Shown: piece after piece, positions 3,387 to 63,271 of the stretch
Numbering within the stretch: the first letter of the stretch is position 1
How the letters are laid out: each line of letters starts with the position of its first letter
Origin: Oceanobacillus manasiensis
GTDB lineage: Bacteria > Bacillota > Bacilli > Bacillales > Amphibacillaceae
NCBI RefSeq assembly: GCF_000724085.1
Contig: NZ_CCDL010000001.1
Coordinates: forward strand, 1,798,001 to 1,862,000
Length of the DNA stretch: 64,000 nt
Direction: 5' to 3'
Position numbers and translations under genes: made by a program
Notes under the pieces: generated by a model
What the model was told of the DNA's origin: nothing
What the model saw: the letters and a program-made list of their open reading frames with translations, nothing else
Databases searched by the model: none

Positions 3387-3545
3387 TTTATCCCGGAGCA
3401 ACCGTCCGTAAGACTCCCACTTCAAAACATGAGGTGAAACCGTGATGTTTAAGTAGGAGTAAACGGACGCTAACACCCCGATTCGTTCAACTAACAATCA
3501 GTGGGGGAAGAGCGAAAAACCCCACTGATTGAAGTTTCACTTTAT
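3387..3545 (+). repeat. Modular intergenic repeat, copy A
   Basis: The unit runs from TTTATCCCGGAGCAACC to GAAGTTTCACTTTAT and holds two hairpins. In the first, CCGTCCGT pairs with ACGGACG. In the second, AATCAGTGGGG pairs with CCCCACTGATT. Closely similar units occur at 5400, 6708 and 32984. It lies between two genes transcribed in the same direction. Confidence 0.9.
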
Positions 3546-5399: not shown

Positions 5400-5557
5400 T
5401 TTTATCCCGGAGCAACCGTCCGTAATACTGCCACTTCAAAACATGAATAGAAACAGTTAGTTTTTAGTGGAAGTAAACGGACGCTAACACCCCGATTCGT
5501 TCAACTAACAATCAGTGGGGAAAGAATGAAAATCCCCACTGATTGAAGTTTCACTTT
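5400..5557 (+). repeat. Modular intergenic repeat, copy B
   Basis: Same architecture as the copy at 3387: TTTATCCCGGAGCAACC start, CCGTCCGT/ACGGACG hairpin, AATCAGTGGGG/CCCCACTGATT hairpin and GAAGTTTCACTTTA end. It lies between the convergent metS and lytH genes, nine bases from the lytH stop. Confidence 0.9.
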
Positions 5558-5566
5558 AAACGAAGA

Positions 5567-6711: not shown

Positions 6712-6834
6712 TCCCGGTGCAACCGTCCGTAAGACTCCCACTGGTGGGAGTAAACGGACGCTAACACCCCGATTCGTTCAACTAACAATCAGTGGGGGAT
6801 ATTGAAAACCCCACTGATTGAAGTTTCACTTTAT
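6708..6834 (+). repeat. Modular intergenic repeat, copy C (compact)
   Basis: The first hairpin lacks the roughly 30-base internal segment of copies A, B and D and is a nearly closed stem, CTCCCACTGGTGGGAG, inside the CCGTCCGT/ACGGACG pairing. The second half is AATCAGTGGGG/CCCCACTGATT and GAAGTTTCACTTTAT. It ends five bases from the yutC stop. Confidence 0.9.
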
Positions 6835-33650: not shown

Positions 33651-36600
33651 TTGAAGACAAAGAAAAGGCGTCAGACGAAGGCATTTAGTATTGCTGCGTC
33701 CGTGTTAATGACTTTTTCATTGGTCACACCTGGTATGGTTAGTGCGGAATCAAATAATAAGCTGCACCAGTCGGTTAATGAATCATCAAGTTCGGTCGTA
33801 CAGAATAAAGTAACTGATCGATTGCTTGATACGTTTAAAAAAGATGATAAAGTTACTTTTCTCGTAAAGTTTGCAGAAAAAGCGGACACGGCAAAGGTGG
33901 CGGAGGAAGCAAAGAAATCTACAGCTAAAGCAAATCTTTCGGCACAAAAGGCAGAGCTGGCACAACGTTCAGCAGTCGTTTCCGAATTAAAAGCAACATC
34001 TCTTACTTCTCAGCAAAATGTAAAAGACTTTCTTGAATCACAATTGGAATCAGGGAAGGTAGAGGATTATAAATCTTTTCATATCGTAAACGGTATGTCT
34101 GTCACTGCTACGAAAGAAGTGGCCGAAAAAATAGCCACATTTGCAGAAGTTGAAAAGATTTTGCCAAACGAAAAGCGTGAACTGTTTACAACCGTTACAG
34201 AGGACGCAAAAGCACCTAGTTCTGAAATCGCCAATGTAGAATGGAATGTAGAACGTGTTGGCGCGCCAGCTGTCTGGGACATGGGATTTGATGGTTCTGG
34301 AGTTACAGTTGCAAGCATTGATACAGGGGTTCAACATGATCACCCTGCATTACAAGAGAAATACCGTGGGTATGATGCGAATACGGGAGAATTCAACCAT
34401 GATTTTAACTGGTTTGACGCTACGGCAGGTCAAGAAACACCGTATGATGATCAAGGACATGGTACACACGTAACAGGTACAATGGTAGGTAGTGAGCCAG
34501 ATGGGTCTAACCAAGTTGGTGTTGCTCCTGGTGCACAATGGATCGCTGTTAAGGCATTCACTGCTGACGGTGGTACAGATGTGGATTTACTTGCAGCTGC
34601 TGAGTGGATTTTAGCTCCAACAGATGCTGAAGGTAATGCCCGAGTTGATATGGCACCAGATGTCGTAAATAACTCTTGGGGCGGTGGACCCGGATTAGAT
34701 GAGTGGTACCGTGATGTTGTCATTAACTGGAGAGCAGCGGAAATCTTCCCTGAATTCTCTGCAGGTAACACCACTCTATTTAACCCAGGCGGACCTGAAT
34801 CAATTGCAGTACCTGCTAACTACCCAGAGTCATTTGCGACTGGAGCTACCGATGCGAACGATGCTCTGGCAAACTTTTCATTACAAGGGCCTTCTCCTTA
34901 CGATGAAGTGAAACCAGATATTTCTGCACCTGGAGTAAACATTCGTTCTAGTGTACCTGGTGGAGGTTATGAAGGAGGTTGGAATGGTACTTCAATGGCA
35001 GGACCTGCAGTAGCTGCAGTGGTTGCTTTGATAAAGCAGGCAGATGCTAGTCTAACTGTTGATGAAATCGAAGAACTTATTACAACAACTGCGACACCAT
35101 TAACAGATGGAAACTTTACAGAAGTGCCAAACAATGGATATGGATATGGCCTTGTAAGTGGATATGATGCAGTATCATCCCTTGTGACTGGTTTAGGAAC
35201 ACTTGAAGGTCAAGTTACAAAAGAAGGAGAAGATACTGAAGCACCTACTTTCGAACATGAAGGACCAGCAGAATCGTATGTTGGTATGGATTTAGATCTA
35301 TCCATTCGTGTAATGGACAACATTAGTGTATCCTCTGTTCAGCTTGAGTACACAGATCATAATGGTGATACGCAAACAGTTGAGGCGGATCGCATTTCTG
35401 GCGACTTCAAAGATGGAGAATATACTGCTACCATTCCTGGAGAGCATATTGATGGTGACTCCCTAACTTACAGCTGGAAAATTAACGACTTTGGAAACAA
35501 CGAGGTTTCCAGTGAGGAGTATGTTGTAACCTTGCACCCTGGAATCACTGTTGGATATTCAGAGGACTTTGAATCAGAGGCTGCAGGCTGGACAGTATTC
35601 GGTGAAAATAACAGCTGGGAACGTGGTATTCCTACTTCAGGACCGGAAAGTGCTGTATCCGGTGAGAACGTTTATGCAACAAACCTTGCAGGAACCTATG
35701 ATAATAATTCTAACACAAACACTCGTTATGCCTCCCGTTGACTTACCAGAAGGAGAATCATACTTACAATTCAGTCAGTGGTACAACATAGAAAATAACT
35801 GGGATTATGGACATGTATTTATTTCAACAGATCAAGAAGAGTGGACACAATTATCTAGAATAACTAATGTATCCGAAGGTTGGGAAGAGGTTGAAATTGA
35901 CCTATCCGAATACAGCGGAGAACGTGTTTATATTGGCTTTAACTTAACTACAGATGGCTCAGTTGTCAGAGATGGTTTCTATATTGATGATGTCAAACTA
36001 GCTGACACTTCTGATAGTGCGAGTGCTTCTGTAAAAGGAAATAAAGGCAAAGCTAAAGGTAAGAAAAAAGGTGCCATCAGCCTGAATAATGGGCAAATGG
36101 GGATTGCAGGCTTTAACAATGCACTTGGAGTAATAAAGAGTGATAAAAAGGCTTCTTTAAAAGAAAAAGTAAATCCGGCTAAAATTGCTCCTCTAATGCC
36201 TGAAAAGAAAGAGAAACCAGGAAAGGATCCGATTAGCCCTGTTTTGTTACCGATGAGTGCACAAGTAAGTGTGCTTGAGAGTGGAAGAACAGTTAATACG
36301 GACCCTGAAAATGGCTCGTATTCTTTACTTCATGCTGCAGGTGAATTTACTGTTAAAGCAGAAGCTTATGGATTTGAATCAGAAGAACAAACAGTCACTA
36401 TTGAAGGTGATGAAAGCACAACTGCTGATTTCACGCTAGAAGAGGTTGCACAACACACTGTAAGTGGCGCTGTGACAGATGCGACTACTGGTGAACCAGT
36501 GGAAGGTGCTACTGTAATACTAGTGGAAGATGCAAATATTGCACCAGTAGAAACGGATGCAGAAGGTAATTACGAATTAACAGCTTATGAAGGTAACTAT

Positions 36601-38037
36601 ACGCTGAAGATTTTGGCTGCTGGTTACCATGGAACAGAAGTAGAAGTAAATCTGGAGGATGGCGATGCAGAGGTTAATGTTTCTCTTGAGCCGTTCTATA
36701 CAGTTCCAGGTGGAGAAATAGGATATGATGATGGCACAGCAGAAAATGCACGTGCTTTCTATGATGCAGGTAACGGCTGGGCAGTAAAAATGTCTCTTCC
36801 TGAAGGAGAAGAATCTGCCATCGTAACAGACGGTGTCTTCAAGTTCTGGGATGAAGAATTCCCTTCCCCAGGTGGAACTGAATTTGCTGTAGAGGTATGG
36901 GATGCTTCAGGTACTGATGGGCAGCCAGGTGAAAAACTAGCTGGACCAATCTCAGCGGAAGCAGTTCGAGATTCTGCTGAGTGGACGGTTGTTGACTTAT
37001 CAGAACATGGTATTGTAGTAGAAGGTGACTTCTACATGGTTTATGTCCAAACACAGCCTAATACTGCTGCACCTGGATTAGCGACAGATGAAAATGGTCC
37101 GAATGCAGAAAGAAGTTATCAAATGGTAGGAGGAGCTTGGTCTCCATCACCAGCTGCTGAAGGTAACTATATGATTCGTTCACGTGTAAGCTATGAAGCA
37201 GAAACACCAGTAATTACCTCTCCTGCAGAGGATCTAATTACAAATGAAGCAGAAATCACTGTAGAAGGAACTGCTTCTCCAACAACTACTGTACAACTTC
37301 TTAACAACGGAGAAGAAGTTGGATCTGCTGAAATTGGTGACGAAGGATCCTTCGCTATCGATGTAGAACTAACAGAAGGAGAAAATGAGCTTACAGCTGT
37401 ATCTCTGTTAGATGGTACAGAAATAGGTGAATCTGAGCCAGTTGTTGTAACACTGGATACAGAAGCTCCTGAACTTACTATTGACAGTCCTGAAGATGGG
37501 GATAAAACGAATCGTGAGACTGTGACAGTAGAAGGAACTGTAGCTGATGCTAACCTAGACTTTGTAGAGGTTAATGGACAGTCTGCAACTGTAGAAGATG
37601 GTACGTACTCCAAGCGGATCCTGTTAGATAACGGAGAAAATGAAATCGAAGTTGTTGCACAAGATCTTGCTGGTAATACAACTTCTGAATCAGTAACAAT
37701 TGACGTAAAATATGATGCACCTGAGATCGAGAACCTAACACCAACTGAGGATAAAACATTAAAAGCTGGTGAAAGTGTCAAGATTGAATTCGACAGTGAG
37801 CCAGGATTGGATGCAACCTTTGTTATCCATATGCCGCTAACAAACGCGAAGAGCAGCGTATCTAACGCTACAGAATTGCCAATGATGGAAACATCTGATG
37901 GGCACTATGTAGGTTACTGGACTGCGACTAGCAATGTTGTAGCAGATGGAGCCGTAGTAGAAGTGAAAGTTAAGGATGACTACGGAAATGAAACAAGGGA
38001 ACAGGCTGACGGAAAACTAATCATTAACGTCGACTGA
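33651..38037 (+). pseudogene. bpr: Bacillopeptidase F-like S8 protease, interrupted by a +1 frameshift
   Basis: The first frame (33651-35741, about 696 residues) holds a signal peptide ending near VSA-ES (residue 32), an I9-type propeptide to about residue 190, and a subtilisin domain with Asp224 (ASIDTG), His270 (GHGTH) and Ser448 (NGTSMA). Near base 35720 one extra base in AACACTCGT moves the protein into the next frame, where MPPVDLPEGESYLQF continues the same jelly-roll domain and runs to 38037. The second part has two carboxypeptidase-regulatory-like repeats, a beta-sandwich domain and tandem Ig-like repeats. Joined length, about 1460 residues, fits B. subtilis Bpr. TTG 33651 follows AGGGGAGG. 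Confidence 0.88.
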
Positions 38038-38050
38038 ACCAACTAATTAG

Positions 38051-38088
38051 CAAGGTGTGTAGACTATTCTACACACCTTGTTTTTTTG
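38051..38088 (+). terminator. Terminator of bpr
   Basis: CAAGGTGTGTAGA (38051-38063) and TCTACACACCTTG (38068-38080) form a perfect 13-bp stem followed by T7. Confidence 0.93.
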
Positions 38089-38269
38089 TGCGTAAGGAAA
38101 GTAAGTATAAAATTAAAGGGTGTTTCCGTAACGTCAATCAAACGCTTATAAAATCACAGTAATTTTCCAAGGATGCCAGGATTTCAACCTAAATATAATG
38201 AATCGAAGCAAAAGACTTTTCAAATCTCTTAAACTCACGTATACTATTTATATAATTAAATATCGATTC

Positions 38270-38408
38270 CATCTTCGGGGCAGGGTGAAATTCCCGACCG
38301 ACGGTAAAAAGCAGTCTCATGCTTTAAGTCCGTGACCCGCAAATTTCTTTTGCGGCTGATCTGGTGCAAGTCCAGAACCGACAGTTACAGTCTGGATGGG
38401 AGAAGATG
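38270..38408 (+). promoter_or_regulatory. FMN riboswitch (RFN element)
   Basis: CATCTTCGGGGCAGGGTGAA begins the aptamer, and ATTCCCGACCGACGGTAA, GTCCGTGACCC, CTGGTGCAAGTCCAG and CCGACAGTTACAGTCTGG-ATGGGAGAAGATG follow in the conserved order, each a separate RFN block. Helix P1 is ATCTTC with GAAGAT. It should repress ribU when FMN is plentiful. Confidence 0.97.
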
Positions 38409-38465
38409 TCGAGCCGGAATTTAGTGCATATTTTGCGCTTATTTTCCTATGATTTTTTAAACATA

Positions 38466-56296: not shown

Positions 56297-56406
56297 CTCT
56301 CTTATTCAGAGTAGGTGGAGGGACAGCCCCGATGAAACCCAGCAACCATCACATCGGTGAAAAGGTGCTAACCTGGTGCAAGGTATTTCCTTGAACAATA
56401 AGAGCG
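56297..56406 (+). promoter_or_regulatory. SAM-I riboswitch (S-box)
   Basis: CTCTTATT (56299-56306) pairs with AATAAGAG (56397-56404) as P1. AGAGTAGGTGGAGGGA, CCGATGAAACCCAGCAACC and AAAGGTGCTAACCTG, then TGCAAGG with CCTTGAACAATAAGAG, match the S-box core in order. It should reduce metK transcription when SAM is abundant. Confidence 0.97.
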
Positions 56407-60518: not shown

Positions 60519-60547
60519 TTGACAAAGCGACAGGGATTATTTAAAAT
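60519..60547 (+). promoter_or_regulatory. Sigma-A promoter of the leuS leader
   Basis: TTGACA (60519-60524), a 17-base spacer and TAAAAT (60542-60547), about 23 bases before the T-box leader structure. Confidence 0.8.
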
Positions 60548-60569
60548 TCGATATACATAACGTAACGAC

Positions 60570-60758
60570 AATGCAAAGGAATAGTAATATTACTTTTTAC
60601 CATAGAGAGACAGTGGCTGGTGAAAACTGTTGTAAAAAGGGTATGAACTCACCTTGAAGTTGCAGAAATGAACGACATGTAGTTTCTGCCGTATATCCGC
60701 GTTAAGGAATACAAGTGAACGCACTATTTGCGTTAATTTGGGTGGTACCGCGGGAGCA
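60570..60758 (+). promoter_or_regulatory. T-box leader, leucine type
   Basis: AATTTGGGTGGTACCGCGG (60735-60753) is the T-box itself, which pairs with uncharged tRNA acceptor ends. Upstream is stem I with the AGAGA-type motif near 60604 and the specifier region TATGAACTCACC near 60642, where CTC reads as a leucine codon. Uncharged tRNA-Leu should favour antitermination and raise leuS expression. Confidence 0.95.
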
Positions 60759-60800
60759 AAGCTTCTCGTCCCTTTTCAAGGGATGAGTGGCTTTTTTTAT
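60759..60800 (+). terminator. T-box terminator
   Basis: CTCGTCCCTT pairs with AAGGGATGAG, with AGC/GCT closing below it, followed by T7. Confidence 0.92.
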
Positions 60801-60853
60801 TGGCTCATGTTCGTAAATGACGATCGATTAGACGTTTTTAAAAAGGAGGAAAA

Positions 60854-63271
60854 ATGATGAGTTTTAACCACAGAGAAGTGGAGAAGAAATGGCAACATCA
60901 TTGGAAACAAAATAAAACATTTAAAGCAGATACGTATTCCGAGAAAGAAAAGTTCTATGCCTTGGATATGTTCCCATATCCTTCAGGTTCTGGTTTGCAT
61001 GTTGGTCACCCGGAAGGATATACGGCGACTGATATTATATCTAGAATGAAACGGATGCAAGGGTTTGAAGTTATGCACCCAATGGGATGGGATGCATTTG
61101 GGTTACCTGCAGAACAATATGCAATCGATACAGGTAACAGTCCGGCAGCTTTTACCGAAAAAAACATTGCTACCTTTAAACGACAAATTGAGGAGCTAGG
61201 TTTTTCTTATGATTGGGATAGAGAAATTTCCACGATGCAACCAAGCTACTATAAATGGACGCAATGGATTTTCACCAAGCTTTATGAAAAAGGGCTTGCT
61301 TATATGGATGAAGTGGCTGTGAACTGGTGCCCTGCATTAGGTACGGTTTTGGCAAACGAAGAAGTTATTGATGGTAAAAGTGAGCGGGGCGGACATCCCG
61401 TTGTACGAAAACCGATGAAACAATGGATGCTGAAAATTACTGCTTATGCGGATCGCCTTCTTGAGGACTTGGAAGATGTCGATTGGCCAGAGAGTATTAA
61501 AGATATGCAACGTAATTGGATTGGTCGTTCAGAAGGGGCCGAAGTCCAATTTTCAATCGATGGACATGATAAAGAGTTTACTGTATTCACAACGCGTCCA
61601 GATACGCTTTTTGGTGCAACCTATGCAGTTCTAGCTCCTGAGCATCACCTTGTTAAGGAAATTATGACTGCTGAACAAAAAGAAGAGGTAGAAGCATACC
61701 TGAATAAGGTGCAAACAAAATCTGATTTGGAAAGAACTGATCTTGCCAAAGAGAAAAGTGGGATCTTCACTGGAGCCTATGCGATTAATCCAGTTAATAA
61801 CGAGAAAATGCCAATTTGGGTTGCTGACTATGTTCTAATGTCTTATGGTTCTGGCGCGATTATGGCTGTTCCGGCGCATGATGAACGTGACTACGAATTT
61901 GCTGTAAAATTCGACCTGCCTATTCGTGAAGTTGTAGCAGGCGGAGATGTAGCGAAAGAAGCATACACAGGAGACGGGGAACATGTAAACTCTGACTTTC
62001 TAAATGGAATGACGAAAGATGAAGCTATTACTAAATCAATTGAATGGCTAGCAGAGAACGGAAAAGGAGAGAAAAAGGTAACCTACCGTTTGCGTGACTG
62101 GTTGTTCGCCAGACAGCGTTACTGGGGAGAACCAATTCCTGTTATTCATTGGGAAGATGGGAGCATGACAACTGTTCCGGAAGAAGAACTTCCACTTGAA
62201 CTGCCAAAGATGTCGAAGATTGAGCCATCTGGTACAGGAGAATCTCCACTTGCTAATAGCGAAGACTGGGTGAATGTAGTAGATCCAGAAACGGGCATGA
62301 AAGGCCGCAGGGAAACAAGCACAATGCCACAATGGGCTGGGAGCTGCTGGTATTTCCTTCGTTTTATCGATCCAGAGAACACTGAACAACTAGCTGACCC
62401 AGAGGCTCTAAAGAAATGGCTACCAATCGATATTTATATTGGTGGCGCAGAACATGCCGTACTTCACCTTCTGTACGCACGTTTCTGGCATAAGTTCCTA
62501 TACGATATTGGTGTAGTTCCGACAAAAGAACCGTTTATGAAATTGTTTAACCAAGGTATGATCCTTGGAGAAGGAAATGAGAAGATGAGTAAGTCTAAAG
62601 GAAACGTAGTAAATCCTGATGACATTATTTTCTCCCATGGTGCGGATACGTTGCGCCTGTATGAAATGTTCATGGGACCACTAGATGCTGCGGTAGCATG
62701 GTCTACTAATGGTTTAGACGGGGCAAGAAAGTTTCTTGATAGGATTTGGAGATTGTTTACAGATGGAAACGGAAACCTTTCTGCCAATATAACAGAAGAA
62801 AATGATGGTTCACTTGAGAAGGTGTATCACGAAACAGTTAAAAAAGTAACGTCTGATTTCAACAACCTTCATTTTAATACAGGGATTTCCCAATTAATGG
62901 TGTTTATTAATGAAGCATACAAAGCGGAACAATTGCCAAAAGAATATATGGAAGGCTTTGTTAAAATGCTTTCACCTGTTGCACCACATATTGCCGAAGA
63001 GCTTTGGGAATGCTTAGGCCATAAAAATACTGTAAGTTATGAGCAGTGGCCGAAATACGATGAATCCAAACTTGTGGAAGATGAAGTAGAAGTAGTAGTT
63101 CAAATCATGGGGAAAGTCCGCGCTAAGTTAACTGTCGCTAAAGACATTTCTAAAGAAGACTTGGAAGAGAAAGCACTTCAAGAGGAGAAAATTCAAGAGT
63201 TGCTTGAAGGGAAAACAATTAGAAAAGTAATTGTCGTACCAGGAAAGCTTGTTAATATCGTTGCAAATTAG
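60854..63271 (+). CDS. leuS: Leucyl-tRNA synthetase
   Basis: This 805-residue class I synthetase has the HIGH motif as [18 protein letters not shown], the KMSKS motif as [16 protein letters not shown], and an editing (CP1) insertion with [33 protein letters not shown] and [12 protein letters not shown] are LeuRS family blocks. Length and order are normal for bacterial LeuRS. ATG 60854 (or 60857) follows AAAGGAGG. It is regulated by the upstream T-box and ends at a bidirectional terminator. Confidence 0.98.

Follow-up and report, generated by a model that had tools for sequence, protein, structure and literature searches.

A one-base length change splits a bacillopeptidase F-type subtilase gene in the genome sequence of Oceanobacillus manasiensis

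Bacillopeptidase F-type subtilases are expected to be single chains of about 1430-1500 residues, and a search of the literature found no paper that joins bacillopeptidase F with a frameshift. Among bacterial +1 shifts the best known is that of prfB, which, as described in PMC12421855, involves a codon whose tRNA can re-pair one base further on, adjoining a stop codon, and an SD-like sequence upstream. In the GeneTack survey, homology-validated singletons were expected to be sequencing errors (PMC3711429). In Salmonella, young pseudogenes are reportedly removed fast (PMC2916853); therefore, a real pseudogene is expected to be young. Here, we analyzed a 64,000-nucleotide stretch of the O. manasiensis genome (referred to as the window), in which the single chain of a bacillopeptidase F-type subtilase is replaced by two parts lying in different frames.

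The two parts of the split gene

The first part of the gene (33651..35741, plus strand) encodes 696 residues and is closed by a TGA at 35739..35741 (plus strand), which stands about six codons past the length change and is followed by a C. The second part continues in the +1 frame at 35728..38037 (plus strand), with 769 residues counted from the ATG at 35728 and without an in-frame stop; a terminator-like hairpin of 15 pairs with a T run is located 3' of it at 38049..38092 (plus strand). The open stretch of the +1 frame spans 35530 to 38037 and overlaps frame one. Homology switches frame near 35717, and DNA alignments place the additional base at 35714..35722 (plus strand). In an alignment of eight DNA sequences, the window exceeds each of the seven relatives by one base near 35717, and a whole-gene alignment with Oceanobacillus jordanicus, the sister species and the nearest genome, has a single gap column across the 4.4 kb coding stretch, at 35717, besides 387 substitutions in 4387 bases. 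Since the family match of the second frame spans 770 residues, with 96% identity to O. jordanicus, this frame is not open by chance. This confirms the preliminary description of the locus, which proposed that a +1 frameshift splits the gene, frame one stopping at 35741 and the remainder running in the +1 frame to 38037.

The mechanical ORF call starts the gene at TTG 33633. TTG 33651 appears to be the better candidate, because GAGGGGAGG sits 7 bases upstream of it. The second part had been said to have no usable start. An ATG is in fact present at 35728-35730, 9 bases ahead of the frame-one stop. No SD-like sequence was found upstream of this ATG, and its product would have no signal peptide. 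Re-initiation at ATG 35728 is conceivable, but the resulting protein would lack a signal for export.

The first part comprises a signal peptide (called by eye from the sequence, without a program), an I9-like propeptide, a complete S8 catalytic domain (PF00082 matched over positions 1-288 of 288, E 6.8e-59), one complete Ig-like domain and the opening strands of a jelly-roll. That it keeps signal, propeptide and full catalytic domain had been proposed before and agrees with these results, and the solved structures nearest to it are subtilisin-like proteases. The second part carries the remainder of the jelly-roll, a choice-of-anchor J / InhA-like MAM domain, together with carboxypeptidase-regulatory-like, Glucodextran_B and Ig-like domains. 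To locate the break, we used a structure model of an O. jordanicus fragment, with a block-mean pLDDT of 89-97 across its two domains. In the eight-sequence alignment, the length change maps between bases 3999 and 4000 of the O. jordanicus locus L031, that is, to residue 200 of the modelled fragment, within the strand formed by residues 199-203, the fourth of ten, so that the jelly-roll is cut after three of its ten strands. Among the best Foldseek matches of this jelly-roll are meprin, immune inhibitor A, the gingipain adhesin and carbohydrate-binding modules. Both the profile matches and the model put the break inside a domain and not between domains; a break at a domain boundary, which a tidy natural truncation would be expected to show, is rejected.

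The best named homologue of the first part among plasmid records is an S8 peptidase in a Bacillus velezensis record (54% identity over 99%). This homologue sits between ftsZ and spoIIGA, which we take to be the bpr locus, and bacillopeptidase F is on this basis a reasonable, sequence-derived name for the split gene. The genome has four S8 genes, the split gene and three others. A second functional copy was not found in the genome, which holds one match to the second part.

Other features of the window include lysine, FMN and SAM riboswitches and a T-box leader (1387-1562, 38267-38411, 56299-56404 and 60562-60776, respectively, all on the plus strand). A repeat of about 90 bases occurs in three copies (3454-3545, 5472-5558 and 6748-6834), for which no Rfam family reached its gathering score at these window positions. 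The copy at L104:610-710 has 35 matches in the genome, 70-84% alike apart from itself, and there are 40 matches in O. jordanicus, one long match included.

Intact homologues and constraint on both parts

A comparison with relatives, recommended in the preliminary description, found the break in the window genome only. A search of the genus yielded 2 genomes, neither of them a second genome of the species. We searched 159 genomes of the family and obtained matches in 80 of them. Outside the window genome, 79 genomes contributed 84 places, each with a single open frame of between 1394 and 1995 codons and none of them broken; the window's own open frame in this search has 835 codons. We also followed the junction in 70 loci from named genomes. 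One of them (L082) has no junction region and was left out, and the remaining 69 are all open across the junction. Eleven of the 70 loci were labelled as differing by the criterion used, because the match in these loci begins a few codons ahead of the open frame; both parts share one frame there. In the assembled sequence, the locus is thus a lineage-specific disruption with intact orthologues, as is characteristic of a recent pseudogene or truncated allele.

Both parts are under equally strong constraint, with dN/dS values between the window and O. jordanicus of 0.057 for the first and 0.055 for the second. On the window branch, the second part has accumulated 72 synonymous and 14 non-synonymous changes, compared to 70 and 22 on the O. 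jordanicus branch (Fisher p 0.26; ambiguous differences, 18 and 24 in the two parts, were left out of the branch counts). About 241 non-synonymous changes would be expected on the window branch of the second part if it were free of constraint. The upper limit (95% bound) on the unconstrained share of this branch is therefore 0 to 2.7%, according to the reference ratio chosen, from which it follows that the change is very recent, or absent from the organism, or that the second part is still translated. An old pseudogene is ruled out, as the second part has neither a stop nor relaxed constraint.

The longest stretch of the gene identical to O. jordanicus is an 86-base run (window 35725-35810), which begins 8 bases past the change. 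Codon shuffles gave an identical run of at least 85 bases in 228 of 2000 cases, and a recombination edge at the break was not relied on.

Origin of the length change

Four origins had been offered for the break. Two of them, a recent mutation and a sequencing error, are still open, whereas phase variation and recoding are unsupported. We consider it probable, with some reservation, that a very recent one-base length mutation is real in the strain's only bacillopeptidase F-type gene, and we favour this reading over an error of sequencing or assembly, in which case the gene would be intact in the organism and would encode a normal protease with a length of about 1470 residues. Such an error is the less probable of the two but a serious contender: the break is seen in one genome only, both halves are fully constrained without any sign of decay, the single indel is the sole defect in 4.4 kb, and singletons of this kind are expected to be errors in the GeneTack survey (PMC3711429). 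The similar constraint on both halves is what a very young lesion would produce, and an error predicts the same. Against an error stands the quality of the sequence where it was sampled. Of 262 O. jordanicus ORFs from two regions (151 and 111), 257 match the window genome in one frame with a coverage of at least 85%; the other five are the split gene, one ORF antisense to the T-box leader and three with low coverage but no frame break. The antisense ORF accounts for a second apparent break, at about 60547-61009 on the minus strand of the window, which was discarded because it lies opposite the T-box leader and a gene start. The split gene is thus the only convincing frame break among the ORFs tested, and indels are not a general problem of the assembly. 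The reverse comparison, in which 252 ORFs were checked for breaks in O. jordanicus, revealed no break beyond the split-gene junction (for seven ORFs the match covered under 85% of the length but showed no frame break). Moreover, the longest homopolymer at the break is AAA, and the commonest class of sequencing indels, those in long homopolymers, does not apply. The absence of a long homopolymer had been pointed out before and holds for the whole 212-base interval where the shift is possible, in which the longest run has 4 bases and is not at the break. The clean assembly where sampled and the lack of a long homopolymer together argue for a real mutation.

Phase variation, in which the site would switch at high frequency between an in-frame and an out-of-frame length, would suit a secreted protein and a lesion consisting of a one-base length change; however, the longest homopolymer of the interval lies away from the break, no tandem repeat was found at the site, and the site differs in sequence across the seven relatives but never by one base in length. 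As the hypermutable repeat tract expected at a switch was looked for and is absent, we regard this explanation as extremely improbable. Recoding, with ribosomes shifting +1 to give some full-length protein beside the truncated form, is in our view just as hard to credit. It would account for the fully constrained second frame, the TGA is followed by C as in the prfB motif given in PMC12421855, and the organism's prfB itself uses the +1 motif. Indeed, the genome's own prfB (L151:1515), our positive control, carries the canonical motif, with AGGGGG, CTTT and TGAC ordered as expected. At the split gene, however, the break is shared by no relative (0 of 84 other places), only four codons in the 212-base interval can re-pair at +1, none of them adjoins a stop, and the nearest lies 54 bases ahead of the TGA. 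There is no SD-like stretch just upstream of the TGA, the C after it belongs to a conserved GTT GAC pair, found in O. jordanicus too, and shifting at the stop would leave the protein with about six non-homologous residues. No slippery codon beside a slow A-site codon with a stimulator was found. Conservation, tRNA re-pairing and the stimulator search, with prfB as the control, thus led us to reject a programmed +1 frameshift.

Predicted consequences and comparison with known systems

If the mutation is real, a one-base length change arose very recently in the single bacillopeptidase F-type gene, and translation would stop about six codons beyond it. The cell would then make and export a truncated preproprotease consisting of the signal, the propeptide, the catalytic domain, a single Ig-like domain and a jelly-roll stub, and the 770 C-terminal residues would be lost. 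We infer that the additional base is present in the organism and that the cell produces and exports the truncated protein, which, as predicted from its sequence, would be a subtilase with 696 residues prior to processing that keeps all catalytic parts. The incomplete jelly-roll stub is likely to be trimmed or degraded. In Bacillus subtilis, Bpr itself loses part of its C-terminus during maturation, and the truncated protein may therefore keep some protease activity. The literature on Bpr processing that we found is sparse and did not confirm this C-terminal shortening. That the truncation is both real and useful, with the strain releasing, through a one-step domain loss now at its very start, a short protease that is fully catalytic and has shed its C-terminal domains, seems very unlikely to us.

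For annotation, the locus should be recorded as one disrupted gene, neither as two genes nor as a recoded gene. Should the lesion be real, the strain would be a natural experiment on the contribution of the long C-terminal part to bacillopeptidase F. Apart from the break, the gene is otherwise ordinary and encodes a large secreted protease that is whole in relatives.

In relation to known systems, the locus resembles the programmed +1 frameshift of prfB in the direction of the shift and in the TGA followed by C, but it lacks the CTTT slippery sequence before the stop, the SD-like AGGGGG and the conservation. With Bacillus bacillopeptidase F (Bpr; MEROPS S08.017) it shares the S8 domain, the I9-like propeptide and the long multidomain C-terminal part, whereas the coding sequence of the homologue in B. 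velezensis is unbroken over 4296 bases and the window gene is split. Strain-specific frameshifted singletons, from which we found no difference, are like the window gene in being confined to one genome, in having homology on both flanks of the change and in carrying no conserved shift signal.
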